From: Crossaster papposus
Lineage: Eukaryota > Echinodermata > Asteroidea > Velatida > Solasteridae
DNA length: 64,000 nucleotides
NCBI GenBank assembly: GCA_037893245.1
Contig: JBAIAA010000531.1
Location: 2,170,001-2,234,000 of the forward strand
Reading direction: 5' to 3'
Made by a program: the position numbers and the translations under genes. The notes beneath the pieces were generated by a model, which worked only from the letters and a program-made list of their open reading frames with translations, did no database searches and had not been told where the DNA came from. Below, piece after piece: positions 30,041-60,205 of the stretch (position 1 is its first letter; every line of letters begins with the position of its first letter).

Positions 30041-30396
30041 GTTTAAAAAATCACGTTTTCGCATGCGGAAATTGACGCCTAATTGAACACGAAACCAACC
30101 CATTTCGTTGCTATATCCGGCCGTCTCCGGCGATCATTTTCATTTCTAGTTCCAGATAGCTTCCACACTAAGTAAGTGCACCCTTCGCCTCCGCAATTTC
30201 CGAATACCGAAACCATAACCCCCGAAACCAGATTTCAGCTTTCCTTGTTTTATGTTAGACTATAAATCGCGGAAATTCATGTGCGTGCTTATGGTCAATA
30301 GGTTGTACGTTCAGCCATAATTATTGAACAAAAATACCAGCTTCAATGTTTCAAATGCTTCCCCTGCAATTTATTGACTTAGTCACTTATTTTATC

Positions 30397-37312: not shown

Positions 37313-37375
37313 TTATACAGCAACACCGACCGTTTGGTCATGCACTGTTCCTTGCTCTGTGGTCATAATAATGAT
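37313..37375 (-). pseudogene. Downstream piece of an open frame split by the MULE
   Basis: If the MULE and one copy of its 9-bp target duplication are removed, the minus-strand frame from 54671-54973 runs on here for about 18 more codons to a TAA at 37313-37315. It is not recognised. See the partner piece. Confidence 0.3.
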
Positions 37376-37412
37376 GAGTGAGGCTATAAGCCAGGCACTT
37401 CGTGCGTGACGT
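37376..37412 (+). repeat. Left MULE TIR
   Basis: 37 bp identical to the complement of 54634-54670. It contains two mini-palindromes, GGCT-ATA-AGCC and GCAC-TTC-GTGC, and ends in GTGACGT, a CRE half-site. Confidence 0.95.
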
Positions 37413-37529
37413 AGTCTGGTGGGGCTCGTTATCAGTAGTGCCCATGTGCGAATTCCCAATTGATGGTTGTGACCCGAGGTCAGTGGTTGCTTTCGTACTG
37501 GTTGCTACAGATACGTCACGCTATGTATA

Positions 37530-37541
37530 TTTCGCGCGAAA
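37530..37541. promoter_or_regulatory. Palindromic E2F-type site upstream of the MULE gene
   Basis: TTTCGCGCGAAA, a perfect two-sided E2F consensus, lies about 70 bp before the gene's ATG and 10 bp after a TACGTCACG ATF/CRE-like word. This suggests an S-phase-linked promoter. It is a sequence match only. Confidence 0.45.
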
Positions 37542-37611
37542 GATTTGATTTCGCGGCATAATTAAATGCAAACATTTAGCTAGCCGGGGAGGCGCCGCTG
37601 GATGGAGAAGA

Positions 37612-40600
37612 ATGCCAGCACCTCGCGAGGAACAGACGATGGACTGGATTCCCAGCTGCTTTAGGCAGCAAAGCCAAACAGAAAACTACATATTTGGATG
37701 GGTATCTAGCGACGATGAACTGAGCACGGTTCTTGACTGCCACAGTCGAGCATCCATGACATCCTATGTATTTTGGTAATTAGTCCACTGAATGTTAATT
37801 ATATTGCATAACGTTATTGTGGATATGATTGGTGCATGTTGCATTTAGTTTATTGATTTGTAGCTGAATAAGCATTAATACTAATAGGTCATACAACTCA
37901 TAGTTTAACTCATAATTAACGACGCTTTGACCAATTTTCTTGTTGTATTAATTGTTTTATTAACAAACTTTTAAAAAAATTGTACATTAATCTAACGTTA
38001 ATATGATCTGGTACAACAGTAACTGAATGCAAAAAAGGTTTAGTAACCTGCCGCCACTTCTTTGATACAATGGATAGTCAAGGGCATCTTCAAAGTTTTT
38101 TCTAACAACATTCGAAGTAGGCCTATTTCTCGGGGCCCAAATTATTTTTTCCCCCAAGTTTGAGATAATAGAAAGAAAAAAAAGTGGCATCCGGATACAT
38201 TTTTTTGTCTTATAAAATCAAGGTACATGTATAAACAAAAGAGAATTTTAATTAATTTGCCTTTTGAATAAATTGTTTGGGTTTGATTAATTCTAAAATT
38301 GAATTTCTGTCCCCACAATATTGTATTGTGTTTAGTTGCAATTTAGTTGCAATAAAATTGAGGAATAATACAGTTGACTCTCGTTAATACAAACACTTAA
38401 AATAAAGAAAATATACAACATTTGCAAAAATAAAAAAAATACCAAATCATTATGAAATACTTGACATCCTGTAAAATTGTGGCACCCAGTGTGTTGTAAT
38501 TTTGAAATTTTGATATCAATCTCCAATGCTGGTCGGCCGATCAGCATTAGAAAATTTTCGGATGTTTATAAATTGCTCCGTTTTATCTCAAGTGGGGTCA
38601 GGTAACGAGACTACAAGAACGTTTTCTAGGTTTTTTGAGCATCTACAAATACAAACCTTCAAACAATTCAGTGTAATAATATTTGATATGTAATGCAACT
38701 CCCCCCCCCCCCCCAATAATACTAAATTCATCCATTTCTCAAAATTACAGCAAAAGCAAATGATGTACATATTCTTTTCAATACAAATTCTGGTTATAAA
38801 GCCAGTCCCGACTCTGCATTTACGTGTACATAATGTGGCCGACACTCCACTTAAAACAAAATGTTAATAAACAAACACTTTTGCTGTCAATAAGTGTCCG
38901 ACTGACTTTGTATTAACTGTAATGGAAAAATGCAGTACACAGAAGTCACCTCAGACTCAATGAATGATCATCTTCAATCATGGCATATTGCACATTGCAC
39001 GTGATTGGATACATATTTTTTAATATGTGACCCACTCTGCAAAAATGAGTCTGATGTGTTAAAAATGTTTTTTTTTCAATTGTACAGTTGGTCAGGAAAA
39101 GCAGAAAATAAGCTTTCATTTGATATATGGCACAACTCTGTAGTGTAATGCATTGGTCTTTTACAATTTTAGGAAATTTGCTTTTTCTCAGTTATACTCA
39201 AAATGTCTTTGAGAGAAATGAAGATTTACAATTGTAGTGCTTAATCAGATGCTATGGTAAGAGAATGACAAAACCTGAATTTAATTTAGGGATCAAAACA
39301 ATCTTTTCAATCGATCAGATCTGAAAATATAGGTGTTACCAAAATGCCTTAAAACTCAAAAATTATTTGTTAAAAAAAATCACCTCCGAGACAATAAACA
39401 GCCCTTTACGTAAAAACGTATTTTCCGACATCAGACTCATTTTTGCAGAGCTGGTCACATATTATGTTTTCTAGTAAATACATGTACAGGTATTGTGACG
39501 CTAGAACCAAGAAAAAAATACCGTTCTAGTAGTCTGGTTCCTTGACATAGCAATTTATATATAGAGTTATCAGGTTAGAAGACCAGACTAGATGGCATTA
39601 TTTTCTAAAGGACAAATCTGCAATGGCCCTATAGCCAAATACATATATTTTTCTTATGACGTAATGGTGCTATGATTGTGTACCAAATTCCATGCGTTTA
39701 TCGTTTGATTGAAAATTATTTTACCAATCTGCCCGACAAAAGAGTACAATAATCAATTACAAATGTTTAACAATCCATTCCATACTGTCCTAATGGTCAG
39801 ATCTCTCATTCCTTTGAAATTGTGCGTAAACCGTCAGTACTGTGAATTTTGAAGACTGTCGGGCATCCTGTCATTCTGAAAAGAGAGGCAATTTAGAATT
39901 ATTAAATTACACCGAGACAAAAACAAATAAAAATTGAGTGTAAATTTGTACTTATTACTAGGTGATCTGCACATCATGATACTAAGTGATACTCGAGTAC
40001 CAATATACAATTGTTGACTGCTGTGATATAACGTTTTGATCACCTGAAGCCGAGGGTGCTATGCATCTCCAAGGGTGTAAAGAAGGAGGGGGGGGGGGGG
40101 GAGGTAGGAGGATGGAACAAATATGTGTGGGAGGGTAAAGATGGGGTTGGGAGAGTAAAGCGTGGTTGGGAGGGTAAAGATTGGGGGGGGGGGGGGGGGG
40201 TCAAAATGGGGGGTGAAGATGGGAAAGGACAAAGTTTGGAGAGGGTTATAGCCTTGGCCAATGCCATCGTCGTTTATTTGTTCGAAATCCACTCGCCACT
40301 GCAGCTTAATAGTTTAGCATGTGCGCACAGTGCAAAAATACATCGCAAACGGCGACCTTACGCGGCCACTATACAAATTATTGCAACTAGGGCAGCGCCA
40401 TGGCCTTGGTTAATTTATTCATTCAAGAATTTGGGGTAAGTCCTCATTATGCTAATATCCTAAGTTAACCTTTAAAGTTGTTTTGTTATTGGTTGATCGT
40501 TGCGAAGAAAATGCATATTTAGATAGCGGTGAAAGGGGTTAACTGCACGCACATGGTCATGTTCACTGTTGGTCATGTATTATAAACGAGTACATGTGTA

Positions 40601-43600
40601 CAGTACATACAGCGTGCCTAAAATTATCAGAGATCAATCGGACTGCAAGTTGATTCGTATAATTATAGTGATTTTAACGAAGGCTTTGGAAGAATTGCAC
40701 ATGTAGGTTGGATAGTTGAAACGGTCGGGAGTAGATCAGTGGAGGGTCATATCATATCAGTTAAATTTTCGCTTGTTTTGCTGGGTATTTGCTTGAATGC
40801 TGACAATGTTATAGTTATGGCTAAAACTACACGGTTAAAACTACATGCATGAACTAACGTATAGGTTTTGTGCCAGCCGAGCTCTGAGCAAAATGGGGCC
40901 GGCTGCCTGAAAAATGATGGATTTAATACCTAATAGCAAATCCACAAAAACAACTTGAGCACGAAGAAAAGGATTTTAAGTTCTTCCGCTGCTCAGGTCG
41001 AAATCTTTGAGGGATAATTTATCTGCTGCAGAATTTAAACAACACGACAGATCTTTGACGACAAACGAAGCTTCCTATAGCCTTTGCCATTTTTGTTAAC
41101 GTTATGTTGCAAACTAAAGTCGGCCTATATAGCTACATGATGTTGGGATTAACCAAGGTGTGATTGGACACTCCACATAATAAGCCCCGCGCCCCCGCCT
41201 ATACTTTTTTTGATGAGTGAACTAAGGCCATCTGACGACCCCAGTTGATTTGTATAGTGTTCGTGTGTGGTCGTTGTTCGCAATGTATTTTTGCACATGC
41301 TAAACTATTAAACTGCAGTGCGCAGGTGAATTTCGAACAAATAAACGACGAGGGTCTTGGCCAAGGCTAGGAGGGCAAGAGAAAGCTCCCCTGCCTGGTA
41401 CAGATTAGGAACACAACATGAGTGTATAACCACCAAATCATAAGGTCACATGAACACATACCAGTATGCAAGGCAGGGCCATTGGCGAGTGGGTGCAGTC
41501 TTGACACAGGAGATAACTGATGAGTTTCTGCATCATGTCTTGGTCAGGACTGAGGAACAAACACAAATACCTTTTTAAGTTTATACACATTTTACTTTGT
41601 TTGTAGTTCCGAACAGATTCCCGGAATTGACCCTCTTCAGTTTTATCTAATTTTGCCAACTTCCAAACTAACAAGTCAAGCATTCAAGACGCTCTCCAGA
41701 CTAACTATTGATCTTTTCCTCAGTTGTCAGTTTTGAGCAAATTACTTTCCCATTTTAAAACACTAACTGGCATGGAGGATGATAGAAACCCACTTATAAC
41801 CCAAACAACCTTCATATAGTGTTCGTAATAGTGCTGTATTCTAAATTGACAAGCTGGATTTCCTAACTACGTGTAAGTGTAACACGATACAGAAAGGACT
41901 GTGCATAATTTAACATTGGGTTTACCTGCCACAGTTTCATCAACATTAAAAAATGTGCACATGGAGATTCAGGTCAGCTTCTTGTCTCAACTAAATTAAA
42001 CAAAAAATAACAAATTTAAAGATAAAGCTAGCTGAGCACTACAACCTTTGTATTCTCGCAGACTAACTTGAATCAATGATATCTAGGTCTGATGATTTCA
42101 AAAAGCAAGAGAGAAAGCAAAAAGAAAGCAGAAGGTTGCTATGGAGGAGTAATCACATCCAAGATGATGGAGTGCCTTTTATGATTGACAGGACCATTAT
42201 AAGGTCATGTCAATATGGTAAACCCCACAAGAGGACTGTGAAGCTGGAGAACAAGGTATGGTTGAAATCACAGTTAATTGTACAGTAATTTGTGTCAAAT
42301 CACACTATGTCAAAGCACTAAAAACTGTTTGCTGGATACTATCAAATTAATATATCTGCTCTAAAAATTGTGCCCATTTTAACCAGTTCGCGTCAGATGA
42401 CGTACCCGGTACATGTATATACATGCAAAGTTTTGCCCGAAATTCAAAACGGAAGACAGTTAAACACGACACGAGCAAGACTAGAAATATTTCTCAGCGA
42501 CTATTCTGCAGTGACTGAGACTCGCAGTGCTTTCCACTGATATCGGTCTCAACCCGCCTCGGATCGAGTTTTTTGAAAAGGAATCCTGCACCTAAGCTTC
42601 CGTCAACGTGAACAAAATACTGGTGCAAACTAGGTAAAATTTGTTTTATCGCAAAAATACTGAACATTTCAGAAAAAGAAAAAAAATGTCTGGAAAGGGT
42701 AGAATGTCCTCTGTCCAATAGTATAAGGTTCATTCTACCATTTTTAACGACAAATTATTTTTTTGTTTGGAAACGTGATGGCAGGGGCAATAAACATATT
42801 TGTCAGATCCCTTTATTTTTGTGGTACATTTACCCGACAAATTTAAGGTGAGGTATTCCCCACATGGCCACCATTCCTGTTAGTGCGTAGCTGGTAACTT
42901 TGTCTCATGTCTCTTTTAATGCCCACCTTATCATCCCAACTTCTTTTTCTGAAAATATTCACTACTTAATTAACTACTTAATTCAAAACTTCATTTGGTT
43001 CGGCAAATTACCTCTAGGCATCTGATCCTGAGCACTCGTACAGCTCTAGAAGCAAGAAACGTTTTCACACGCAAACAACGCGGAAAGTGTGCTGTGAAGC
43101 CCAAATCATCATTCGCTATCTTAGCAGGTACACAGTATACAAACAGACCTGTTACAAAAGACACTATGAATGAAAAACATTAAACTGTATTTTATCATTA
43201 CAAATATTGTGAGAAGTAAATGATATATACATGTATGTATGCGTTACAGATTTGAATCATTTGCCGTTACCTCAAATGCCAGTCGACAACAACGTAAAGA
43301 AGCACTTGACTCCATACATGGCAGGGTAACAAGCAATAGTTCACCTCCTGTCTGGAGACGCATCTTTCTTCAGCTGCCTCAAATAGAAGCACACACTGGC
43401 CATGAAGTTTCTGAAGAAGAAGGGTTTTCCCACCATATTCACCCTCTGGTCAAGTCCAAAATATACCAGCTGGTAGGATCTGGCATAACATCATGCCCAC
43501 TCATTAAAACCCTGCTAGATAAATACATAGTCCAAGAACTGTGTCGATATGACCCAGTGAAGCCTATAAGAAGTGACCGGGCATACTTTCCAACGAGCAG

Positions 43601-46600
43601 GGATATAAAAAACCACATCCATAGAGCCCTGGTAGTTGGACAATATTCAGCTCTTGACATCGACAACCTAGAAGAGAAGATTAATGAATGGAAGACGACT
43701 GAGCCAACAACAAGATTCTATCTTCGTCGGTGTCAAGAGAAATCGAATACAGCTAACCATAAAGAGGAAGACAGCAAGACAGACCACCTGTTCTTGTTTA
43801 TCCACCAAACAAAGCAACAGCAGGAACTACTGCGGCGATATGGAGACATGATACTCTTGGATGCAACCTACAAAACATCCAAATATGCACTGCCTCTGTT
43901 CATCATGGCAGTGCGTACTAACATTGGCTACATTCCAGTGGCTGAATTTGTTCTGGAAGAGGAAACATCCAGGAGTATCGCAGAGGCTCTTCATATCATC
44001 AAAGAGTGGATGAACAGTGATGACACTGAACAATCTTGGGTGCCAACGTGAGTTTCAGTAATACCGAAAAAAGAAAACAATGTAATTGTTTAGTATTACT
44101 CAATTTGCAATACTTTATTTTTCATTTCAACTGCGTACCCATTCATTGTAATTCACCGATCTCCCATGAGCCCCAGTAACATGAAGACAATGAGAAGAAC
44201 ATTTCAAATGATAAGAAATTATAGTTTTTGATGTGGGAGAAAAACCCCAGAACAACATTCTAGGGAAACCCACCAAGTCAATTAGGGACTGAAAACCCAA
44301 TTAACATAATTGACCCAGATGGAATACAAACCTGGCTGTGAAAGGCGAGGAAAGAACCACTACGCCAACTCGACTTTCCACTTTCATTAACTTGTACCCC
44401 GGCCCAAGATTTAACTTTTTTTCCCATTCAGCTACTTCATGACCGACTACAGTGATGCAGAATACCAGGCAATAAAGGAAACCTTTCCAGACAGCAAATG
44501 CTATATATGTGCATTCCATAGAGAGCAGGCATGGATACGGTGGTCACGGGACTGTGAGTTAAACATTAAATAATAGCATTCCTAGAAAAAATGCATTTGT
44601 GGAATATTTTTACAGCTTGATTATCAAAACAGTAACCCAAATAAATATTTATTTTTCAATTAACTGAGATTGTTGACCGTTGAAATTGTTGTACAGCCAA
44701 ACACCAGCTCTTGCCAGTAGAGAGGGAGACATTTCTCCAATTGATGAGAAACATTGCAAGTGCTCCATCCGAGAACGAGTACATTGAAGCAGTGAGATGC
44801 CTCAAAGAAAGTACTATCTATAGGATGAACAAGCAAGTACAAGCTTACGTCAACACAAAGTGGCTACCCATTCCCGAGGTACAAATATTGTTTATGAATT
44901 TTGTTATGCCATTCGATTTGATTCTCAGGCTGGGGTCCTGTAGGTACAGTTGTGGATTATAGGTTTTTTTGTGGGTTTTCTCTGGGTTCTATTTCCCTTC
45001 CCCTGTAAAAATCAGCAGAGATATTTAGCTGTGCTCCTGGTCTGGCAGCTGTCTAATGCACCTAATTATTTTTGATAATTTACGTGTGCTAAAAAACAAA
45101 CAACCTCTGGTAAACAAACCTTCTAAATCTACAAACAGACCATGCTCTATAAAAAATGTTCCATGCATTTAACAGAGATGGTGCCAGAGTTTCTTCCAGG
45201 CTGGGTTCCATGTGCAGGTTACGACAAACAACGGGGTGGAATCCCTCAACCACAGTCTGAAGTCGTTCCATTTACAACTGCGTTCACTTGGATCTCTGTC
45301 AAGTATGCTGGAAGTTTTGACACAAGACTTTGTAAGTGCTCAAATGCAACGATATGCCCGTGAAAATTGGAGGCAGAGCATTTTCAATAAGTCATACAGC
45401 TCGAAAGTTCCAGATTTCCTTCACAACAGACCCAAGCAAGTTATCAAACACCTGATGAGTAGGATAGAGAATTCCAGAGTGTACATGAAGGAAGATGTAA
45501 TAATGACAGCGCCCAGATGTTTTCAAGTCAGAAGTGAAACTGGAAAGCAAGGACTATCCTACCAAGTAAGCTTTGGGTCAACAGATCAGGTTCCCAAATG
45601 TGATTGCCAAGATTGGAAGCTTACATTCTTACCATGCAAGCACTTTTTTGCAGTTTTCTCCAACTCTGACTTGACATGGGATGATTTGCCCGTTGCATAC
45701 AGAGAAAGTCCTTACATGACTTTGCAGCCTTACTGGCTGACACATCCGAAAGAGTCTGCACACCGCCTCCAAAAACCTGATTGTTCATGTACGGAAAAGC
45801 CACAAGTCGAGCCACAAGTCGAGCCACAAGTCGAGCCACAAGTCGAGCCACAAGTCGAGCCACAAGTCGAGCCACAAGTCGAGCCACAAGTCGAGCCACA
45901 AGTCGAGCCACAAGTCGAGCCACAAGTCGAGCCACAAGTCGAGCCACAAGTCGAGCCACAAGTCGAGCCACAAGTCGAGCCACAAGTCGAGCCACAAGTC
46001 GAGCCACAAGTCGAGCCACAAGTCGAGCCACAAGTCGAGCCACAAGTCGAGCCACAAGTCGAGCCACAAGTCGAGCCACAAGTCGAGCCACAAGTCGAGC
46101 CACAAGTCGAGCCACAAGTCGAGCCACAAGTCGAGCCACAAGTCGAGCCACAAGTCGAGCCACAAGTCGAGCCACAAGTCGAGCCACAAGTCGAGCCACA
46201 AGTCGAGCCACAAGTCGAGCCACAAGTCGAGCCACAAGTCGAGCCACAAGTCGAGCCACAAGTCGAGCCACAAGTCGAGCCACAAGTCGAGCCACAAGTC
46301 GAGCCACAAGTCGAGCCACAAGTCGAGCCACAAGTCGAGCCACAAGTCGAGCCACAAGTCGAGCCACAAGTCGAGCCACAAGTCGAGCCACAAGTCGAGC
46401 CACAAGTCGAGCCACAAGTCGAGCCACAAGTCGAGCCACAAGTCGAGCCACAAGTCGAGCCACAAGTCGAGCCACAAGTCGAGCCACAAGTCGAGCCACA
46501 AGTCGAGCCACAAGTCGAGCCACAAGTCGAGCCACAAGTCGAGCCACAAGTCGAGCCACAAGTCGAGCCACAAGTCGAGCCACAAGTCGAGCCACAAGTC

Positions 46601-49600
46601 GAGCCACAAGTCGAGCCACAAGTCGAGCCACAAGTCGAGCCACAAGTCGAGCCACAAGTCGAGCCACAAGTCGAGCCACAAGTCGAGCCCCAAGTCGAGC
46701 CCCAAGTCGAGCCCCAAGTCGAGCCCCAAGTCGAGCCCCAAGTCGAGCCCCAAGTCGAGCCCCAAGTCGAGCCCCAAGTCGAGCCCCAAGTCGAGCCCCA
46801 AGTCGAGCCCCAAGTCGAGCCCCAAGTCGAGCCCCAAGTCGAGCCCCAAGTCGAGCCCCAAGTCGAGCCCCAAGTCGAGCCCCAAGTCGAGCCCCAAGTC
46901 GAGCCCCAAGTCGAGCCCCAAGTCGAGCCCCAAGTCGAGCCCCAAGTCGAGCCCCAAGTCGAGCCCCAAGTCGAGCCCCAAGTCGAGCCCCAAGTCGAGC
47001 CCCAAGTCGAGCCCCAAGTCGAGCCCCAAGTCGAGCCCCAAGTCGAGCCCCAAGTCGAGCCCCAAGTCGAGCCCCAAGTCGAGCCCCAAGTCGAGCCCCA
47101 AGTCGAGCCCCAAGTCGAGCCCCAAGTCGAGCCCCAAGTCGAGCCCCAAGTCGAGCCCCAAGTCGAGCCCCAAGTCGAGCCCCAAGTCGAGCCCCAAGTC
47201 GAGCCCCAAGTCGAGCCCCAAGTCGAGCCCCAAGTCGAGCCCCAAGTCGAGCCCCAAGTCGAGCCCCAAGTCGAGCCCCAAGTCGAGCCCCAAGTCGAGC
47301 CCCAAGTCGAGCCCCAAGTCGAGCCCCAAGTCGAGCCCCAAGTCGAGCCCCAAGTCGAGCCCCAAGTCGAGCCCCAAGTCGAGCCCCAAGTCGAGCCCCA
47401 AGTCGAGCCCCAAGTCGAGCCCCAAGTCGAGCCCCAAGTCGAGCCCCAAGTCGAGCCCCAAGTCGAGCCCCAAGTCGAGCCCCAAGTCGAGCCCCAAGTC
47501 GAGCCCCAAGTCGAGCCCCAAGTCGAGCCCCAAGTCGAGCCCCAAGTCGAGCCCCAAGTCGAGCCCCAAGTCGAGCCAGCGAAAGAGCCCAACAAGCAGA
47601 AAGAATTCCCCATAGACAAAATAAGAAAGACACAACACCATTTGCAGGAAGCCATCAAACAGCTTCATGATGCTTCATTTTTGTGTCAGGATACAGACAT
47701 TCTGCAAACAACATCGCTGCAAGTAAAATATCTCACAAGGAAATTGCACACAGGGTTTGTCAAGGATGGGGGCCTTCCGCTGCACTGCAACGACAAAACC
47801 CCTAAAATAATGCAGCGACAACTACCGAAGAGGAGGAAGAGGAAATTAAATCAAGCAAGTAAGAAAACACTCATCATTTTGTAATGTGTCCAACTAGAAA
47901 AGCTGTTTGAAAAAATTGTATGAAAAACTGGCAATATCTTTAAAAATCGAAAATTCTACACACTATCATTAAGATATGAAATTGCATGGTTGCAAATGGA
48001 ATGGAAGCAAGGGTTGAAATGCATTTAAATAGAAGAATGGGGATACAGTTTGATTAGACAGAAAATCATGATCGGAAGGATAATGAAAGTATTAATTAAG
48101 TCACTTACCTTCCTCTTTGAAACCCATGTACAGAGTCAACTTTGCCATCAAACCTGTCAAGGAAAAGATACAGTGAGTCATGGTGCAGATACACGCAATT
48201 AAGTGCCTAGTTTGTTTTATTTCATACATGTGCATGTATTTTAACCCTCTCTCTATGATGGCTGCTAACTGTATGGCAGTGGTATACATGTATGCCCAAA
48301 TCACTCCAGCTGCACTGTGTTGGAGGATTCTTTGCCTGTGTAATGAAGAGCACTTCTGTAGTTATCAAATGGGCATACACATTGTATGGCCTCATAGCAT
48401 GACCCAGTTGACCTTAGTTTCAAATGTCATTCCTTGGTGTGATTTGGAGTGCTATGTACAAAAACAGGGCTTTTTGTAAGGCAAATTGAAGTGCAATGGC
48501 GCGTAAACCAGAAAAAGGGTTAATATGCCTAGATAACTACAAGTAGCCTTGAAAACAAAACTTATCAAATATTCCTTCCTTGACCCTCAGTGTTCTAATT
48601 ATCATTTTTAGACCCCAAAAAGGTCAAATTTGCAGACAGGAGGACAGTTCTTGATGGAGGTGATAACTCCCAAAACAAGACTTTAGGTGAGTTTCTCAAG
48701 CAATTTAATCTTTTTGTGCTGTCTTTTGGTTTTGTCATTGGTTATTTATGCAATTTCATTACTTTTACTACTTCGTACACTATTTGATTTACTTCAAATT
48801 GTCTAGGTATACATTTGATGACATCTAACATCTAAGACATACATCTAACTTTTGTAATATCTACCGGTAACACATAAATCCCCACACCTCTACATACATG
48901 TCTGCATTTTACTCAGACACCAGCGGCCTGACAGCATTTATATTTGGCACGAGTACCACATTCAATTCTTACTTAAATAACATCCTACATGTAATTTGTG
49001 CGGTGCCAAAACCTTTGGAAGTTTTGAATGTTAGTAAACAAATTTCCAATATCCCTACAGATATCGACCGTATTTGGAGGACTCAACGAGCATCAATTGT
49101 GTACCTGTGTGCAGTGGTCTGTGGAGTCCGGCTGTTTACAGAGGATATTCTATCCCTTTCAGGAAAGCGATGGCTGACACACGCAGTAAGTATGTGTTCC
49201 TCTGGCAATTCTGTAAAATGTCGAGACAAAATACACGCATTTATAATTCCCAAACTTTTTTCCTCACTTAGATCATTGATGCGTATCTATCACTACTATG
49301 CAGCAGGCAGAGGTCAAGGGGTAAACACATCTGTCACATTCCTGCTATTGAGATGACACAAATCTGTTGGCAAGGGGCCTTCTACAACTCCAGCAAACCC
49401 AAGGCATTGCTCCAGGCTAAGGTAGATGACTCTTCCACTATTTTTTGCAGTCATACTAGAACCACACAAAAACTAAATGAATTTTAATGTACAGTAAACG
49501 CCCGTTTTTAAGGAACGTCAAATCTCAAGGAATGAAAAACATTTTTGAGGTTGTTATAAATAACGTGTTTGGGCAGACTAACAAATGTTTGCCAATTTCT

Positions 49601-51345
49601 TTATTTACATGCACGTATGCAAGATGCACAATTTCAGAAGAATGCATACCATTATTGGATGCATTAACACTGGAGGGCACTTCACACTCTTGGTAAGTAG
49701 CTTTTCTAGCTTCAGCATTTAATTAACATGTTCACAACATCTACAGATATTTGTTGATACATGTATTGCATGCATAAACAATTCAAGAATTCATTACAGA
49801 AAATATTGTAGTTTTTACTGGCAACCTAAAATGGACTGAATTATTTAATTTCCTCTTGCAGGTCATGCACCCAGAGTCTGGTGAGATGTTCTTCTACAAC
49901 CCGCTAGGAGAGATAAGAACACAACAACAGAAAATACGAAGTAACTGGCAGTAAGTAAAAAAGACCAGTGATTTGAAAGTCAGTTACACATGTATATCTA
50001 CAACAGTATGAGTACAAGTTTCACATATACTGTAGATATGTAATGGTTGGAAGTTCAGGCGCAAAAGCCAACACATCACTTCTATGAAAAATTATTTTAA
50101 CGATATCACGTAGAAAGCTCTCAGTGCCCATAGTATACACAATAATCTAATAATTTGTTTGCTGGTGTTATTAGTAGATGTTGCACCTTAGCTTTTCACT
50201 TCTAACAATACCACAATCAGTCTGATATTCAACCACTGCAACAAATTGTTTCTGTAAAGTTTTTCTCTCTCTCTCTTTAAGAAACTACTGGCTGCTTCGT
50301 GTCATGTCCGGTAGAGAAAAACGAATCATCAACTGGACAATGAAGACAAAAGAACATGTCAAACAACAGGACAGTAGCAACTGTGGAATTTTTACACTAC
50401 TGGTAATATCAGGAATTTGTTTTAGTGAATATGATGAACCACTACGAAAAGCTTTTACAACGAATTATCGCAATGGATGTGCATGTTGTACCACTTACAA
50501 TATGTTTGTTTTTATTAAGTTTTTTTATTGCAGTGTGTAGCTTGAATTCCAAACTTAATACCATTTAGAAACAAAAAACTATGTTTACATTCAACTAGTG
50601 TATACATGTAAGTGCACAGAACATTGTAACAGTAATCAGAATTTAACAATCATACCTAAATGTGAATCTTTCTAACAATTACCCGGTATTTTAACTGATC
50701 ATGGCTTATATTGAATACTCACTACAGTTTGCAGACATTCATCTGACCAGCAGAGATGAAGATTTGCAGCGGTGCCCTGATGTGAGATCACTCAGGAGGG
50801 TGATTGGTGAAGCACTAGTGTCGTCTTCTGGTAAGCAGAAAAAAAGGAAAACAGAGAATTCAAGTTGTAGAATGATGTTAAAATAAATCATAAATTAACA
50901 TCACCCGGTAACCCTAACACTAACAGCACTCATTTTCAATATCAATTTTTAAACACCCCAGGCGGATGGTTACAGATTGTGGAATTTCAGACTATGTGTA
51001 CATGTACGTATGTTTGCATCACGTGCAGTATGCTTTTTACTTTTGACATGCAGATGATCTTGGCAAATACTGCCGAGGATGTGGACAAACACTAAATGAA
51101 GCAACAATGGATGTAGTGGTACGTACATTGTAATAACAATGTGTCAACAGTCATTATACGGTATATCTATGTATGTGCATAAAGTTGTACTACAAACAAT
51201 GCAAAACACAACATACATGTGTACTTGTCGATTTCAGAAATGTTTTTCCTGCGGAGGAACTTATGAAAGACAATGCATCACTGCTGACAACTCATCCAGT
51301 GAAACAGAATGCAGGTGGTGCACATTACATGCACAACTAGTGTAG
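37612..51345 (+). CDS. MULE transposase with SWIM finger, (PQVE)148 and Ulp1-like protease
   Basis: Sixteen exons: 37612-37775, 42087-42255, 43018-43127, 43250-44047, 44432-44553, 44697-44878, 45176-47858, 48612-48686, 49061-49185, 49272-49421, 49624-49692, 49862-49950, 50282-50402, 50728-50830, 51054-51118, 51238-51345. All introns are GT-AG. The joined frame is 5,133 nt (1,710 residues) with no stop before TAG. Domains: a FAR1/FLYWCH-like basic region with C96 and C136/C137; the DDE core with D352 (ILLDATYKT), D419 (FMTDYSDAE), C437/C440/H443 and E537 ([12 protein letters not shown]); SWIM C657xC659-C669xH671; PQVE repeats 724-1315; a basic KRRKRK stretch near 1400; a C48-type protease core with H1545 (GGHFTLL), N1562 where Asp is usual (FFYNPLG), Q1607 and C1613 ([10 protein letters not shown]); and a tail with C1660/C1663, C1677/C1680, C1688 and C1700/C1703. 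It should act in the nucleus, cutting and joining element ends. The protease part may process SUMO-like modifiers, which is inference. The start at 37612 is the first ATG in frame after the E2F-type site. The exon 11 acceptor (GCAAG) is weak. Confidence 0.85.
39021..39464. mobile_element. 444-bp MITE in intron 1 of the MULE gene
   Basis: Ends TAATATGTGACCCACTCTGC and its near-complement. The inverted match continues through AAAAATGAGTCTGATGT. No gene inside. Confidence 0.78.
40080..40205 (+). repeat. G-rich minisatellite
   Basis: G runs of 12 or more alternate with GGGAGGGTAAAG-like units, strongly purine-biased on the plus strand. Potential quadruplex DNA in intron 1. Confidence 0.8.
40249..41369. 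mobile_element. 1.12 kb TIR element in intron 1
   Basis: TAGCCTTGGCCAA at the left matches the complement at the right. The match extends inward through TCGTCGTTTATTTGTTCGAA and TTTAATAGTTTAGCATGTGC, about 100 bp in all. No open frame of note. Confidence 0.7.
42379..42638 (+). mobile_element. TTAA-type MITE copy in intron 2
   Basis: Starts TTAACCAGTTCGCGTC and carries the family's GAGCAAG and GGATCGAGTTTTTT blocks. The right end is degraded. Related to copies at 52840, 53170 and 53602. Confidence 0.6.
44217..44395 (-). repeat. tRNA-derived SINE in intron 4
   Basis: On the minus strand: A box TTGGCGTAGTGG (44357-44368) and B box GGTTTGTATTCC (44321-44332). A common SINE body follows, with CCTAATTGACTTGGTGGGTTT and TTCTCCCAC. 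Confidence 0.7.
44924..45045 (+). repeat. SINE body remnant in intron 6
   Basis: GTGGGTTTTCTCTGGGTTCT and nearby words match the 3' body of the same kind of SINE as 44217-44395. The Pol III boxes are degraded. Confidence 0.4.
45800..47575 (+). repeat. 12-bp coding minisatellite, 148 perfect units
   Basis: Units 1-74 (45800-46687) are CCACAAGTCGAG. Units 75-148 (46688-47575) are CCCCAAGTCGAG. Both encode Pro-Gln-Val-Glu. There is no other substitution or length change. The array gives a 592-residue acidic, proline-spaced spacer between the SWIM finger and the protease half. Because the unit lacks stops, open frames on both strands overlap it. Those are artefacts. Confidence 0.97.
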
Positions 51346-51951
51346 TCTCATCACAGTAGTGTATAATGTATTCCAGTACAGAATAGTCCTGCCAGTTTTG
51401 TATCATGCTTATAGCTGTGTCATCCATTCGTTTATGACTACACTGTATCATTACCATACACAAAAGCGTTAGTCAACTACATGTACTGTATGTCCGGAGG
51501 GTCCGACTTTCATCCACACCTTGTACATGTAAGAGGACTGCATACTGCACATTACTCAAGTATTATTTGTAGGTGACATAGGGTTAATGTTTTTGTCGCC
51601 TGCAAAACTTTACGTACCGGGCAACAAAATTGGGAAATCTTGTCAAACAAATATTATGTCATATACAAGCCATTTTGAACAGCGATACACAGAGAGAAGG
51701 TCCACCTTTGAAGGATGCATGGTCTCTTTTATATATATCCGACTTATATTTAATTCAAATATAATGTGCTGCTTTCCTACCTTTCTATGTTCTGGTATTT
51801 ATGTACATGTACATGTACTGTATGGAGATCTACGGAAACAAATTGGAAAATAATACGAGAAGGCATTCAGTGTCATTAGAAGTTAATAGCAAGTACCCAA
51901 AAGTACCAAAGACGTATTTGTAAGTAAAAGAACATGGAAAAATATAGATAT

Positions 51952-52840
51952 AAAATCCAAGAATAATTATGCCAAACTATGCCAAACAAAATTGCCTAGA
52001 ATAATGATGTCTGCTGTGTCGACAGTTTGTAGAGTTGTATCCAAGTGCCTGGCCTTTAAAAAGTAGAAGGCCAGGCATCTCATGTACATTGGAAATGAAA
52101 TGTAACATTTAAAATCCAAGAATAATTATGCCAAACTATGCCGAAAAAAATTGCCTAGAATAATGATGGAGTCTGTTGTGTCGACAGTTTGTATAGTTGT
52201 ATCCAAGTGCCTGGCCTTCAAAAAGTAAAAGGCCAGGCATCTCATGTACATTGATATTGAAATGTAATATTTAAAATCCAAGAATAATTATGCCAAACTA
52301 TGCCAAAACAAATTGCCTAGAATAATGATGTCTGTTGTGTCGACAGTTTGTAGAGTTGTATCCAAGTGCCTGGCCTTCAAAAAGTAAAAGGCCAGGCATC
52401 TCATGTACATTGGAAATGAAATGTAACATTTAAAATCCAAGAATAATTATGCCAAAAAACTGTGCCTAGAATAACGATTTGTCTGTTGTGTCAACAGTTT
52501 GTAGAGTTGTATCCAAGTGCCTGGCCTTCAAAAAGTAAAAGGCCAGGCATCTCATGTACATTGGAAATGAAATGTAACATTTAAAATCCAAGAATAATTA
52601 TGCCAAAAAACTGTGCCTAGAATAACAATTTGTCTGTTGTGTCGACAGTTTGTAGAGTTGTATCCAAGTGCCTGGCCTTCAAAAAGTAGAAGGCCAGGTA
52701 TCTCATGTACATTGGAAATGAAATGTAACATTTAAAATCCAAGAAAAATTATGCCAAACTATGCCGAAAAGAATTGCCTAGAATACTGATTTGTCTGTTG
52801 TGTCTACAGTTTGTAGAGTTGTATCCAAGTGCCTGGCCTT
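51952..52840 (+). repeat. Six-unit tandem array, unit 150-162 bp
   Basis: Units begin AAAATCCAAGAATAATTATGCC at about 51952, 52111, 52273, 52432, 52583 and 52733. Each has a hairpin GCCTGGCCTT CAAAAAGTA AAGGCCAGGC, except that the last unit is cut inside it by a TTAA-type MITE. It lies past the MULE gene's stop and inside the element. Confidence 0.9.
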
Positions 52841-53084
52841 TAACCAATTTGCGCCGGATGACGTACAGTATAAACGTACAGTTTTCCCACGACTCAAAAG
52901 GGATGAACCAAAAACACGTCACGAGCAAGGCCGGAATTGTCTGTCAGCAGCGAGCAAGGCCGGAAATGCATGGGTGTGCTTCCCGGCACTATTGGCCTGA
53001 ACCTGCTTCGGATCGAGTTTCGTTAAAAATAATCACACACGTCGGCTCGGTGATGTTACAATAATCCCGACGCAATCTGGTTAA
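52840..53084 (+). mobile_element. TTAA-type MITE copy
   Basis: Bounded by TTAA on both sides. Ends CCAATTTGCGCCGG and its near-complement. Contains the GAGCAAGGCCGGAA and GGATCGAGTTTCGTT blocks. TTAA targets are used by piggyBac and Kolobok. Confidence 0.75.
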
Positions 53085-53169
53085 TGGAAGAGGTACATGT
53101 ATGCAGACGAATGTTTGCAGCCCTCCTACTCCCTCCCCTAGTCTAGACATTATTTTCAAATATATTTGG

Positions 53170-53412
53170 TTAACCAGTTCGCGCCGGAATTATTTTAACA
53201 TCACCGAGCCAAGGGGCGGGATTATTTTTAACGAAACTCGATCCGAAGCGGGTTCAGGCTGATAGTGCCGGAAAGCAACACCCACACATTTCCGGCCTTG
53301 CTCGCTGCTGACATACATTTCCGAACTTGAACCTGGCCTGTTTATGCGCCATCAGTTTTGAATTTTGAAAAATTTTTGCGTTTATATACGTCATCCGGCG
53401 CGAACTGGTTAA
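53170..53412 (-). mobile_element. TTAA-type MITE copy, inverted
   Basis: Perfect ends TTAACCAGTTCGCGCCGG and its complement. Opposite orientation to the neighbouring copy. Confidence 0.8.
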
Positions 53413-53601
53413 ATGAAAGTTTACTACCTATGTACATACAATTTATGTAGGCCTAGAATCAATTTGTGGTGTTTTTTTCTTCCTTGATCAGGGTTTTGTA
53501 TATTGTATCTATATCTGGAATTTGTGCCTCTTGCTTTTGCTCACATTTTCGAGAATTACAGCATGAGTTTGTACAGCAAAAACAAAAGTTTAATCACTCC
53601 C

Positions 53602-53768
53602 TTAACCAGTTCGCGCCGGATGACAAATATAAACGCAAAGTTTTCCCAAGATTCAAAACGGATGATGCATAAACATGCAACGAGCAATTAGGCTGGAAAT
53701 GTCTGTCAGCAGCGAGCAAGGCCGGAAATGAGTGGATGTGCTTCCCGGTTAAAGGCTGAACTGGTTAA
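53602..53768 (+). mobile_element. TTAA-type MITE copy, shortened
   Basis: Starts TTAACCAGTTCGCGCCGG and ends at a TTAA shared with a partial inverted copy that runs on to about 53853. Confidence 0.65.
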
Positions 53769-53865
53769 AAAGTTTGCGTCGGGATTATTTTGAAATTGAC
53801 CAGGCCCAAGCGGGATTGTTTTTCACAAATCTCGATCCGAGACCGGTTCAGGCCTACATCATGGG

Positions 53866-53933
53866 TAGTTGCGATAATTGTAACCCACCTTCCTTCGACC
53901 GTCGTGAGGATAATCTTTCGATTATCGCAACTA
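53866..53933. mobile_element. 68-bp mini-MITE with 9-bp target duplication
   Basis: TAGTTGCGATAAT and its complement form the ends. CATCATGGG repeats directly on each side (53857-53865, 53934-53942). The 9-bp duplication is the MULE size, but the ends differ from those of the surrounding MULE. Confidence 0.65.
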
Positions 53934-54633
53934 CATCATGGGTAGAACACCACGACTTTTTGGGGTCATTCTTCATGTGTGTAAGAATTTTTTCCTAAAA
54001 ATACACTTTATTGTGCAGTTCAACAAGGTGTCCGAGGCAAAGACATAAAAAAAATAAAAAATAATAATGTTGTAAAATCATACTGTTCATGCTGTTCACC
54101 ACGACATCAGTTGGCTCCAAATAGTTCTCAGTTGGTGTGATGTTTCCTGACGGACGGATGCCTTGCCCACCACGAGGAAGAAATTCCTCCATTTATGCCA
54201 ACTCTAAGATTCAGATAGGCCTAAGTTAAATACATGTATCATTCAATTACAAAAGTTGGGTTTGACCATAGAGCAAGGAACAGACCTAGCCCCGCATACT
54301 CCAGTGCGGGGCCATGCCCCTAGACAGTCCACTGTGTACTCAGCAGAAACTAAACATGATCTACTTACTTTGTTGTTTCGATTCGGCTAAAACTGATTAG
54401 GCCTACGTCCAACATGTTTTCTTTTTTCATTTTTGTAGGCCTCGGCCCAATTTCCATGTTGTAACAACGTTAAAATTGTTTTCAAACTGCCTGTTGTGTT
54501 GTTTGTATCGATACGTACATGTACATTATACTGGCGCAATGAGCTGTACGTGTGCGTGTACATGTGCGTTCCCTGTGCGTTCGTATTCGGACGTCTGTAA
54601 TTGGGTTTTCTGTGCAGCCAGCTTAGCGCTGTG

Positions 54634-54670
54634 ACGTCACGCACGAAGTGCCTGGCTTATAGCCTCACTC
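54634..54670 (-). repeat. Right MULE TIR
   Basis: 37 bp, exact complement of 37376-37412. The adjoining bases complete a GTGACGTCAC palindrome (54631-54640), a full CRE-type site, on this side only. Confidence 0.95.
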
Positions 54671-54973
54671 AATAATGATGGTGGTGTCAAGCTCAGTCAG
54701 AATAACTCGACGGACAACTTCGTCAACGGCTAAATCATAACCTACTGTTATGGCTACCATGGCAAGGAAGTGTTATTTGATGGTTTCAGGAATATCTATT
54801 TTCAGGGGATGTTGTGCAAACGTTGTTGCAGTACAGCGAGCTACTACAGACTTAGCAAAATCCGTTATGGCGTTAGAATTATCCCGCGCAGCAAGTGTCT
54901 GTGACTGTCCTTTGACCTTATAAATCGGGTAGCACAACAGGTGGAGATCCTCTGTGGCTAGAAAAGCCAAGCC
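54671..54973 (-). pseudogene. Open-frame fragment interrupted by the MULE, unknown protein
   Basis: On the minus strand a frame starting after a CACCAG acceptor-like site reads about 65 codons (including LHLLCYPIYKVKGQSQTLAA and VVARCTATTFAQHPLKID). It reaches a TAA at 54773-54775, then stays open to the MULE target site. It continues on the far side of the element at 37375-37313. It looks like a former exon or part of another repeat. I do not recognise it. Confidence 0.35.
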
Positions 54974-57292
54974 TTCTACTTGACCCTGGTGACCTCAGCA
55001 GGCTAAATCTACTCAGTGGTATTAGTATATAATAAATTGGGTTTTTTTTAATTTCTTTCAAATAGAGAGTACGTTCAGAGAAATTCTCAAGCTGTTTTGT
55101 CTAGTACTTTTGATACCTTGATGCAGACGTCTCTGCATGCATGAACTAAGAAAATTTAGCTCCCAATATTCACGTGTGGTTCATTTTAAACTACATGTAA
55201 GCATAACTTTGGTGTTTTTTTATATGAAATATATTTTGTTTTGTGTCGGGGTTTCACTTTTTGTTTACTCGCCCTGTACTATTCCCCTCGTTTCTTTATT
55301 ACTATTTTAATCCTGTGTTGAACGTTTCATTTCGTCCGAGAAAAAACCCCACACGTTTTTACCAAACTAATTTAGTCAGATACCGTTCTAATTTTGTGTC
55401 ACTCTATTTAAACATTGTCTTGGAAATATTCCTCATTACGAATCAAACTTGTCTAAGATCTTGCTGTCTAAGTTGTTGGGGATAGAGCTTTTCTTATAAT
55501 AATCAATTTCAAACTTATATTAAGAAATTAGTCTGGTGTGTGATTGAGTCAAGCACATATGACTAATTTATTATATAATATTGTTAATTGTTTTACTTTT
55601 TATTTACAAATGTATATTTTGGGTGTAAAGTTTTGTTCTTACGTTTGAACCCCGACTTAATGTTTTATTTTGTTTTATATATGATTTAATTTATTCAATT
55701 TGTGGTGCCCCATACAAAAAAACACCCTTGGTTGAATGGTTACCATGTATTATAATGAAACATAAATAAAATCCCTTAGTTGAGAATACAAGTTGCCTAA
55801 AGAGTCTGATCATCCCAGCACAAGCTTGTTTTACTATTAAAGCAAGTTTATGTGTGTTTTTGTTGGTCCCCAGCTGAATCTTCGCAGCTACTGTAGGCCT
55901 ACATCCCATTTTAGCTGACGATAGTACGAGAAATTGGTTTAGCAGGCGATGTAATGTATTGATATGCTGGTTGGTGCTTATTTACGGGAAAACAAACACA
56001 CACACATACAACTTTATGGAGTACGTATACCCGGGCATCAATAATTGGTATATACTGTACATGTACGTACAGTACATGTACCTAGTGTACCAACATAGGA
56101 TATCGTACGGTGTGGTTTAGCGGTTCACACTCGTCTAAAACGTATAAAGGGCCAGTTTGGGTCAAATGCATGTGGGGTAAGGTAATTCGAATCAGTACGG
56201 AAAAAGACAAAAGTTCACAACTCGCTGTGATAGATCACACAGTATAGCGCTGCGATTATTGCGTCCTTTACAACATGGATATGCTGCACGCCTGTGTCAG
56301 TACTGTCTGTATGGCCTGTACTATAAAGTCACTGTGTAATTTATAAACGAGTGGTAAAACTTAGCGTTGTGACATCTTACACAACTCTAGCACTGCATGC
56401 GGACTGAAGGCGGCTTTACGAAGAAAACAAAAACATTCACATTATACAAAACAAGAGATTTTGTATTTCTAAAACAAACACAAGGTGGTTTAGAGAGTGG
56501 CAGGGGAAACTCACACTATTAACAAGACACTATCCTGTTTGAATGTACATGTGTTTGAAATGATACTTTTATTTAAGTAGACCCGGTCAGTTTATCAACA
56601 TGCAGGTTATTTTGTTCTGTACATTATAACGAGATGTATTTGCAGATTGTACATGTTCATACGTATACAACGCCAGTATGGTACAGGCGAATACTGAAAG
56701 CCGATGTACACAGTACTAATTGGTTCACTTTGATGTTTCGCACTAACTATATAAAACCTGTAAAATCAAATTATTTGAGAAAACTTGATAGGAACGAAAT
56801 GAAAAAACAAAATCTTAGTACACCGACGAGTCGTGTTGCGTAAACATGTCATTTTTATATACACATTTAAGAGAGGTAAACTACCGAACCAGGAAAATAA
56901 TAAGAATGTTATTGATTGTTTGCGTGAAAACGATTCAAGGAAAATACTTTGCATGCACACATTCTAAAACAGAATCGGCCATCTTGTGTGAGCATATTAT
57001 TTTAGCGGCAATATGGCCGTTCAACATTACTATTATGACTAACCAATAGCAAACTGAATCCTATGTAGTACACCCGGTTTCGGCTTGATTCCATGTGCAT
57101 AGAATTATGTAAACTAGTGCACGAAAAATTTCCAATTAACGTGTTCTGCTCGTCGTAAAGCATGCAAACTTGGCGTTACATTTTCATAACCCCGCACTCT
57201 GTGGGTAAACTGTTAGCCGAAACGGGGGGGTGCACCTCCATCGTTCGTTTCATGCGTCGTTAAATTTTCGTAAACCCATCCCTTTCGCACAG
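54974..57292. other. No supported gene
   Basis: AT-rich DNA with TACATGTA-type words near 56050. A weak SINE-like stretch at 56101-56175 has an A-box-like TGGTTTAGCGG but a poor B box. At 57213-57292 there is a short minus-strand frame, GWVYENLTTHETNDGGAPP, of unknown origin. Confidence 0.4.
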
Positions 57293-59380
57293 TGATGGAT
57301 CTACGGACTCCCAAGCGGATAAATTTCTCAATGAGGATGGTATGATCAATCATATCGAACGCTTTGGAGAAATCCGTCAGAACCACCGTCCCAATGTTGC
57401 CGACCTCGTCAGCACCCTGATGGAGTGAATGGAGAAGACTAACTAAATAATGGGAGGTGGAAATGCCTTTGACATTGCCAAATTGCTGTGGGTCAATTTT
57501 GTCTTGAGTATCCTCCAAAACCCAGTTTGTTACAAAACCCTCCCCTATCTTTGCAAAGCAGTCAGTCAAAGAAACTGGCCTGAGTTTATTAGCCGTAGGG
57601 GGCTTCGTTTTGGGTATTTGTACTACTATAGCCTTTTTCCATTGCTTAGGCACCACGCCCTCTTTGTACGAGCAATTCAACACATCAGTTAAAGATGAAC
57701 TCAACTCATAGGCAAATTCTTTAACAAGCTTGGGAGAAATTCCATCGGGACCAGTGGCTTTGTTGGATTTGACTTTTTTGAGCTCATTGTACACTTCCCA
57801 AGGATAGAGTGATGGTGGAGGCTCCATGGCTGGTAAATAAGCCTCCAGAACATTAAGATCCAGAGGGGGAATATGAGAAGAAACCTTCACAAACTGATCA
57901 TTAATTGTATTGGCAATAGTCACATGATCATCATCACTCACTCCCTGTACAGGTATTCTGAGGACAGCTTGAGTGTTTCCCGTCATTAATTTTATCTGCT
58001 GGTGCCACTTCCTTGGATTTGTTTCTTGTAGAATTCGAACTCTATTAGCGTAGAAGTGAACTTTGGCCTTCTTGATCTCTCTACGTACCTCATTGCGTAG
58101 TTTATTGTACACCACGACTCTCCCCGACCCGAACGCAACCTGTCTCATTTTTACAAGTGATTGAACTTTCTGAGACATCCAAGGTTTATTACTGCTTTGG
58201 GTTTTTATTGTTTGCATGGGAAAGAATCTATCAACTGCACCATGGAGAGACTCGTATAGTGCATCTGCCTTACGCTGGGTATTTTCAGCTTTGAGAACAT
58301 TAGACAGTCTTGTTCTTGAATCCACCTACCAAACACTCTTAACTCTGAATCTTTCATAGGACGGAATGTCCTTTTGCTGCCCTGATTTTTTATAGCACGC
58401 ACATCAGGTCTCCACAGGATACATACATGATCACTCTTTCCCAATGCTGACAAGGGAACTGGGTCTCTATAGTGAACATTGAAATTGGTCATGATAAGAT
58501 CTAATGTTGCAAGTGCACGTGTGGGAAATTTAACCAACTGTTTTAGATTACAATGTTTGAGAATGTTATTTACCGGCATTCTGTTGAAATCCCCCATAAT
58601 AGCGAAACCAATGTCCGGATATTTAGTGTGAAGAAGGTCCATGGATTCCAATAGATGCTGTGTGAGAAGATCTTGGAGGGAAGAATCTGGTGGAATATAG
58701 ACGCCACATACAGCGATGATCGATGTATCTCTAGGTAGCCTCTTAGGTTGTAGCAGAGACCATACACACTCCAGCTCGTTGGGGACTGAGATTTCTGGAA
58801 TCCCACTTGCAGTGATATGTGACTTGACATAAACTGCAACTCCTCCACCTTTTGCATGACTACGAGACTTTGAAAAAATCTCATAGCCGTCAATGGAGAG
58901 CATATAGTCAGGCATATCAGGTCGAAACCAAGATTCAGTTATCACTCCCACATCTACAGATTCTTGATGTAAAAGCAGCTCAAAGTCATCAAACTTGTTC
59001 ACAAGAGATTGAGCGTTGCAAAGCACGAATGTAGGAAAATCTCTCTTTGGACGTTCTTGAAGTGATGTTGAAGTGATGGTTTTAATCTCAGTGAGATTTG
59101 ACAAAGTTATCCCTCTTCTAAGGTTCGTGGGGTTCTGTAAGTGGGGTCTAGTATAAGCCTCCACAACTTGTATTCTCCTATACAGGCTCCTTCCTCCACG
59201 ACACCCCCTCTTATTTCTTTTTCGGCACGCCCTTAAATCAATGAGTGTACTTTGTAAATGGGAGTCTGGTTGGAACAAGCAGATGTTACTGTTCAAGCTC
59301 TTAAGAAAGCTACTGGAGTACGTATGTCTGTTAATTGTAGGCATGTCTCTTGAGTTGAGACAGCAACCACAGCGTGTCAA
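57293..59380 (-). mobile_element. LINE 5' half: endonuclease and RT fingers/palm
   Basis: On the minus strand the frame at 59380-58205 holds an APE-type endonuclease: ITESWF, KGGGVAVYV, GDFNRMP, LDLIMTNF and SDH, the residues used to nick target DNA. It changes frame near 58320 into 58325-57293. That frame has the RT start blocks KATGPDGISPKLVKE and KLRPVSLTDCFAKI and the catalytic VVLTDFSKAFDMIDH. Similarity stops abruptly after LGVRRSI near 57293, so the rest of RT and the 3' end are gone. Loss of a 3' end is not the usual LINE truncation and points to a later deletion or rearrangement. Family is CR1/L2/Jockey-like. Confidence 0.85.
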
Positions 59381-60205
59381 ATCTCAGTTAAGTTTAGTAA
59401 CGCTCACAGTAGTATATATGCATTCAGAAAGCTGACGAATGACATGGCTTTAGCAGTGGCGGCGTCCTCAAAACAGTCCAGCACCTGATGAACTCCAGGC
59501 ATATGATGATGACTCCAATAAATGGCTGGAAAATACTGAACTTCCAGTGTAACTTTGTCCCAAGACCAACAATAATTTTTGGAGATGTCGGTACCAGACT
59601 AAAAACTCCCATCAAATACTGGTTAGAGGTAGTCTAGTGTCACTCTTCCAAATATGGGAATAATGCTCTGCAAAGACCACCACAAAACTGTGGTGAAAAC
59701 TCTCTTTTAATACAAAGTCCACGGAAAATACTGGAGTGTAGGTGATAACGAGTACTCACATACTATGCAGTTCACGAATTTAAGACAAATACCAACTCAC
59801 TAACAGCAAAACTGAGACAATCTAACGGAAAAACAACAGAGCAGAGAAACAAAATGATGCAGCCTCATGAAGGGCGCCCTCTATAGTCACAGACTCCCGT
59901 GTTTGAATTTATCCAACTGTTATCTGCGTAACCGATTGAACGGAAGTCGAGGTCGACAAATTAAATTGTGTAAATTCACACATTTCCATTTGTTTCAATA
60001 TGTTGTAAATTGAAATGCTTCACTTTTCTTTCAAAATGCCTATTTATTGCCCTTGATCGAATGGACCGAATCGTGATGCAAACAAGAGATTGTTTGACAC
60101 GTTGTAGATCCTGGTACCCGCATGGGGTGTTTTCTCGTAAAATCTCGAGGTTCCCAACGCCCCTAAAGGTATACTCAGCATGATACGCGACCAAAAGACC
60201 CTTAG

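Follow-up and report, generated by a model that had tools for sequence, protein, structure and literature searches.

What kind of element places a SUMO-protease-like module behind a transposase in a single gene, and how might it recognise its own ends? The question is raised by positions 37376-54670 of a 64-kb stretch of DNA from the sea star Crossaster papposus (contig JBAIAA010000531.1, positions 2,170,001 to 2,234,000), which we refer to throughout as the window. Our answer, held with fair but not full confidence, is a cut-and-paste transposon of the Mutator-like element (MULE) kind, inserted recently and probably autonomous, whose N-terminal CaRF-type domain would bind the element's own ends and which would be kin of the lineage that gave the transcription factor CaRF. 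What we say of expression, of the binding of the terminal inverted repeats, of activity and of the protease substrate we infer from the sequence. A sequence-only reading of the same DNA had centred on a transposase-Ulp1 fusion, and had passed over the CaRF (ALS2CR8) domain, a C-terminal zinc finger, a CaRF-type site at the terminal inverted repeat ends and a minisatellite carrying a piece of these repeats. The news of the element lies in the N-terminal domain, rather than in the Ulp1 fusion.

The element spans 17,295 bp and is bounded by two terminal inverted repeats (TIRs) that agree at 37 of 37 positions, with the matching run stopping at base 37; the inverted-repeat listing gives 38 bp, since the T/A just outside, which belong to the duplication, can pair as well. 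Immediately outside stands a 9-bp target-site duplication (TSD), AATAATGAT, in perfect copies on both sides. Terminal inverted repeats and a duplication of this size are as in MULEs, for which a range of 8-11 bp is tabulated (table in PMC6446971). Both the identical repeats and the duplication had been described before, and both were recovered exactly. A search of the window with the TIR, allowing up to three mismatches, returned only the two ends and gave no match in 100 shuffles, and no further copies of the element were found inside the window. Because the TIRs are identical, the TSD is perfect and the reading frame is open, these features speak for a recent insertion.

37367-37375, no strand: 9-bp TSD, left copy, AATAATGAT
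37376-37412, plus strand: left TIR, 37 bp, same sequence as the right TIR
54634-54670, minus strand: right TIR, 37 bp, carrying the same terminal CaRF-type site as the left
54671-54679, no strand: 9-bp TSD, right copy, AATAATGAT, perfect

Between these ends we rebuilt a gene of 16 exons (37612-51345, plus strand), in which 15 of 15 introns have GT...AG borders and all phases agree. The coding sequence of 5,133 nt, including the stop codon, encodes 1,710 residues with no internal stops, and this independent rebuild bears out the 16-exon, 1,710-codon gene of the sequence-only reading. The exon chain is supported by domain matches that cross exons (continuing across exons 2-5 and across exons 9-14), by a gap in guanine-plus-cytosine fraction between the nonrepeat exons (0.40-0.50) and the introns (0.27-0.38), and by codon scores. 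The latter, calculated per exon by a leave-one-out procedure as a test of frame, were best in the assigned frame for 14 of the 16 exons; exons 6 and 11 were the exceptions, and exon 3 passed by a narrow margin. Pfam matches over the cut-off leave out exons 1, 6 and 8; these are placed by reading frame and splice borders, and for exons 1 and 8 the codon scores agree.

37612-37775, plus strand: exon 1, start codon, without a domain match
42087-42255, plus strand: exon 2, first part of the CaRF-type (ALS2CR8) domain
43018-43127, plus strand: exon 3, CaRF-type domain continued; exons 2-3 cover ALS2CR8 positions 2-79
43250-44047, plus strand: exon 4, ALS2CR8 positions 84-231, then the start of the RNase H/DDE domain with D352
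44432-44553, plus strand: exon 5, with D419 and the MULE-transposase motif C440-x2-H443
44697-44878, plus strand: exon 6, after the CxxH motif and before the catalytic Glu, without a domain match over the cut-off
45176-47858, plus strand: exon 7, catalytic E537, SWIM finger, QVEP repeat and basic cluster KRRKRK
48612-48686, plus strand: exon 8, linker ahead of the protease
49061-49185, plus strand: exon 9, start of the Ulp1/C48-like domain (W1472)
49272-49421, plus strand: exon 10, Ulp1/C48-like domain
49624-49692, plus strand: exon 11, Ulp1/C48-like domain with His1545
49862-49950, plus strand: exon 12, Ulp1/C48-like domain, Asn1562 at the SENP1 Asp position
50282-50402, plus strand: exon 13, Ulp1/C48-like domain with Gln1607 and Cys1613
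50728-50830, plus strand: exon 14, end of the Ulp1/C48-like domain
51054-51118, plus strand: exon 15, RING/PHD-like zinc finger at the C-terminus, scoring under the Pfam cut-offs
51238-51345, plus strand: exon 16, rest of the C-terminal zinc finger and stop codon

The core of the encoded protein displays the features of a MULE transposase. It matches the Pfam families MULE (PF10551, E 4e-14, above the cut-off) and ZSWIM1-3 RNaseH-like (PF21056, E 3.3e-13), and D352, D419, C440-x2-H443 and E537, which we take from their motifs to be the transposase residues, stand in the order kept by MULEs. Behind the DDE domain, where many MULEs carry a SWIM finger, the SWIM motif is intact (C657-x-C659-x9-C669-x-H671), with Pfam scores of 17.2 and 19.5 bits, both under the cut-off of 19.6. 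The DDE-then-SWIM order of MULE transposases that had been read from the sequence is upheld; of the profiles proposed for searching at that time, MULE and Peptidase_C48 lie above their cut-offs and SWIM just under. The PF21056 match gives the RNase H-like domain a likeness to ZSWIM1 and ZSWIM3; these are host genes, and differ in being named zinc finger SWIM proteins by Pfam. The transposase part had no PDB match at E up to 1.

Behind the SWIM motif, exon 7 encodes 148 perfect QVEP units (residues 725-1316, 592 residues), followed by the nuclear-localisation-like basic cluster KRRKRK. The codons of the array fall into two blocks, 73 units ending in CCA and then 74 ending in CCC, before a single final CCA; the difference is synonymous and there is no other variant, and the arrangement reflects either a very recent expansion or an assembly effect.

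45798-47578, plus strand: 12-bp in-frame tandem array, 148 QVEP units

Ahead of the transposase core, residues 64-274 (211 residues) match ALS2CR8 across model positions 2-231 of 235, with 121.4 bits (E 7.4e-35) against a cut-off of 28.9. The two parts of the model also match separately: exons 2-3 alone score 52.6 bits, and the opening half of exon 4 scores 60.8 bits. Exon 4 goes on to encode the start of the RNase H domain, which makes the ALS2CR8 part integral to the transposase. Judged from these matches, CaRF and the element's transposase share descent across both parts of the ALS2CR8 model. To the eye the CaRF-type domain resembles the FAR1/WRKY-GCM1 zinc finger, the usual DNA-binding type of MULEs; the Pfam and PDB searches gave this likeness no support, and it stays a guess. 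Scanning one bacterial genome and 14 control genomes with ALS2CR8 gave no matches, which is uninformative for an animal family. Among the open-licence papers listed, judged on titles and the starts of abstracts, none is about a connection of CaRF (ALS2CR8) to transposases.

The motif of CaRF from chromatin immunoprecipitation is RRARYGAGGC, and in competition experiments changes at A3 or at G6A7G8 are essentially abolishing, those at positions 1, 9 and 10 have weak effects and those at positions 2, 4 and 5 have little (PMC2877716). Counted from the outside, the first 9 bp of each TIR, GAGTGAGGC, fit motif positions 2-10, and the element end together with one flanking base, TGAGTGAGGC, satisfies all of A3, G6A7G8 (strong) and G9C10 (weak). 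The 9-bp form RARYGAGGC occurs five times in the window, two of the five being the exact TIR ends, and is held on either strand by 145 of 63,963 window 37-mers (0.23%); here the two TIR ends count as one observation, being copies of each other. The likeness to CaRF takes in both parts of the ALS2CR8 domain and, at the TIR ends, nine of the ten positions of the binding motif. The excerpts of PMC2877716 differ in giving CaRF a C-terminal activation domain, and describe no transposase or protease part; for the middle region of mouse CaRF (residues 292-472) that paper knows of no function. We regard the match at the TIR ends as suggestive, not proof, and we infer from it that the CaRF-type domain binds the element's own ends.

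Several observations weigh against this reading and should be set beside it. At the element ends motif position 1, a weak one that falls inside the TSD, is unmatched, and the full 10-bp motif, with two occurrences in the window, has none inside the element. The motif from the selection screen, YSANAACGAGGC, is absent from both strands of the window, and CaRE1 is absent from its plus strand. Several motif forms were tried, and their source is mouse and human CaRF, not the element's protein. The DNA-binding fragment matched no other Pfam family, and no PDB chain at E up to 10. No polyadenylation signal (AATAAA or ATTAAA) lies within 2.7 kb behind the stop codon, and the His-Asp-Gln-Cys active site of the protease is incomplete, Asn replacing Asp. 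Protein and DNA-pattern scans of viral and prokaryote contigs confirmed no relatives, and the element is known from a single copy. As for CaRF itself, excerpts of PMC2877716 report a single CaRF-like gene product in each species having one, lancelet included, with no transposon-like copies, and orthologs in lancelet and in sea anemone; given the sea anemone ortholog, any domestication would have to predate the cnidarian-bilaterian split.

The first alternative is that the CaRF motif at the TIR ends is a chance match and that the transposase recognises another part of the TIR, such as the 11-mer GCCAGGCACTT (TIR positions 15-25). The motif is short, with position 1 unmatched as noted above, and the 11-mer is repeated in six minisatellite copies, as a binding site might be. 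Against this, a 9-bp motif found in just 0.23% of window 37-mers sits exactly at the element ends, and the TIR end and GCCAGGCACTT may both be bound; we consider a chance match rather unlikely. The copies of GCCAGGCACTT in the minisatellite share the orientation of the right TIR, and the 11-mer could be a second candidate site for the transposase, in addition to the CaRF-type site that we favour at the extreme ends.

51951-52840, no strand: 151-bp minisatellite, 5.7 copies, with six copies of GCCAGGCACTT on the minus strand

CaRF is an orphan transcription factor of the vertebrate brain, and an apparently intact transposon with this domain, whose ends carry nearly all of the CaRF motif, hints at its origin. 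The direction from transposase to transcription factor appears the likelier one. We put forward tentatively, at a little less than even confidence, that CaRF arose when the DNA-binding half of an animal MULE transposase from this lineage was domesticated, and that CaRF kept the DNA specificity of the transposase, so that the sequence it reads near neuronal genes would be the ancestral transposon end (A..GAGGC); the same elements would carry a SUMO-protease-like module. The opposite course, in which a CaRF gene of the host, or just the exons for DNA binding, was taken up by a MULE, has something to recommend it: host gene parts are picked up by MULEs (review PMC13317346), and CaRF is old and conserved, with its one product per species and its sea anemone ortholog (PMC2877716). 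Capture is nevertheless unlikely in our view. The ALS2CR8 match takes in almost all of the model and reaches to the RNase H domain, a single exon (exon 4) encodes both ALS2CR8 and RNase H parts, and a matching site at the element ends is not something that capture would bring.

Behind the transposase and the 148-unit repeat, the protein matches Peptidase_C48 (E 2.2e-8, 34.6 bits against a cut-off of 20.7), and every PDB match of the protease with E <0.01 is to SENP1 or SENP2. The arrangement reported in the sequence-only reading, with an Ulp1/C48-like domain behind the transposase and a huge repeat between them, is supported. In the alignment with SENP1 the WL-motif Trp, the His, the Gln and the Cys are kept, Asn stands at the catalytic Asp and Phe at the Trp after the His. 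Because of the Asn we call the domain no more than Ulp1-like, and make no claim of activity. It is followed by the C-terminal zinc finger, which is RING/PHD-like and scores below all Pfam cut-offs.

Taken together, these parts suggest how the element may work. One spliced gene would give a five-part protein, comprising the CaRF-type domain, the DDE and SWIM transposase, the QVEP linker with its basic cluster, the Ulp1-like protease and the zinc finger. The CaRF-type domain would recognise GAGTGAGGC at the extreme TIR ends, and the DDE domain would cut at the TIR ends and join with a 9-bp stagger. The tethered protease could then take SUMO, or a similar modifier, off proteins that sit at the element or at the break, which could ease silencing or repair. 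Counter-silencing by the protease, which the sequence-only reading had suggested alongside self-processing, is plausible because anti-silencing in VANDAL elements of plants goes together with VANC genes that bear Ulp1, though the review reporting this calls the exact function of Ulp1 in them unknown (PMC13317346). The theme recurs in Ginger1, CACTA and plant MULEs, and an open gene lets one ask what role Ulp1-like modules have in DNA transposons.

Two other roles for the Ulp1-like domain have to be weighed. It might process the element's own protein, like the adenovirus protease, instead of acting on SUMO. The adenovirus protease family Peptidase_C5 also matches (8.2e-5 with the C-terminal half, 1.2e-5 with the domain piece), and one site of the form [MIL]xGG, the cleavage-site rule of adenovirus-type proteases, is present between repeat and protease (LDGG, residues 1423-1426, exon 8 at 48612-48686). 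We find this unlikely, since C48 outscores C5, the PDB matches noted above are all to SENP1 or SENP2, and a single LDGG-type tetrapeptide is by our own estimate near chance expectation. The domain might also be catalytically dead, surviving as a binding module or as a decaying passenger, as the changes from Asp to Asn and from Trp after the His to Phe relative to SENP1 could indicate; plant KI-MULEs offer a parallel, their expression being repressed and function likely lacking (PMC8277862). However, the His, Gln, Cys and WL-motif Trp are retained and the frame is open through exons 9-14. The third catalytic residue of papain is itself an Asn, which further counts against a dead protease, and to this explanation, too, we assign a low probability. 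De-modification of proteins by an Ulp1-like protease is the role that we propose, with self-processing and a dead domain as serious rivals.

Fusion of Ulp1 to the transposase of an animal MULE is not new, because cases from hydra and lancelet were printed by Bao et al. in 2010 (PMC2836005). The sequence-only reading knew of no such fusion described from an animal, with the transposase first and the protease after it, and on this point it has to be corrected. Bao et al., citing Repbase Reports of 2008 and 2009, report that Mutator transposons code for Ulp1 in hydra, in lancelet and in several plants, describe an alignment in which Ulp1 and PHD domains from Mutator transposases stand with those from Ginger1 (legend of Fig. 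1e) and propose a role of such proteases in transposition or repair. Our element may be one more of these Ulp1-bearing MuDR transposons of animals. Ginger1 of hydra likewise has an animal transposase with a C-terminal Ulp1, and in one family also a PHD finger (PMC2836005), but its transposase is Gypsy-integrase-like, not MULE. Membership of Ginger1 was rejected, as Pfam found no rve match (the Gypsy-integrase-type DDE) in our protein and a MULE match instead.

Ulp1-like domains are also shared with plant MULEs (KI-MULE/VANDAL, melon, rice and grapevine), in melon also in MULEs with TIRs; in melon and rice the Ulp1 gene occurs in direct and in reverse orientation to the transposase (PMC2528002). 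The available excerpts on these plant elements make no mention of a CaRF-type domain. KI-MULEs, as described there, differ in lacking TIRs and in carrying Ulp1 in VANC-type genes reversed to mudrA; our element has TIRs, with the protease in the same gene and on the same strand, and assignment to the KI-MULEs was rejected. Other features recall Rehavkus, which has a 9-bp TSD, a PHD finger and a minisatellite ahead of the 3' TIR, and aphid Phantom, with a 9-bp TSD and a minisatellite behind the transposase open reading frame (both PMC6446971). Of the Rehavkus features, the minisatellite is present here and the finger is RING/PHD-like below all Pfam cut-offs. In two MULE surveys (PMC6446971 and PMC13359780) the terms Ulp, C48, peptidase and ALS2CR8 are absent from the main text. 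Among our own searches, 17 loci fetched by the TIR start or DNA pattern included no relative (tblastn with both protein halves, best E 0.23), and by our own estimate collections this large should contain a 17-base pattern by chance alone; Rfam matches numbered zero.

A host gene merely lying between inverted repeats, or a Pack-MULE, would suit the many introns and the large size, but is very improbable and was dropped, as the gene product is itself a MULE transposase between identical TIRs with a perfect TSD.

The noncoding parts of the element hold repeats of their own. Repeats starting with TTAACCAGTTCGCGCCGGA, or near it, lie at 42379, 52840, 53170-53412 and 53602, of which the copy at 53170-53412 closes with the reverse complement, resembling a TTAA-inserting miniature inverted-repeat transposable element. 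The 26-bp repeat start, allowing up to six mismatches, has five matches, all within the element, and none in the 46.7 kb of flanks. As TTAA-ended repeats are present in the 3' region as well as in intron 2, the noncoding parts of the element have taken insertions. Intron 1 contains two inverted-repeat structures, at 40249-41369 and 39021-39464, with arms of ~120-160 bp and 53 bp, respectively, which are possibly nested non-autonomous elements.

Elsewhere in the window, a Gypsy-type polyprotein of 1,252 residues is open at 8435-12193 on the minus strand, with reverse transcriptase, RNase H and integrase, and fragments of LINE-type reverse transcriptase and endonuclease lie at 29115-30050 and 57216-59383, both on the minus strand.

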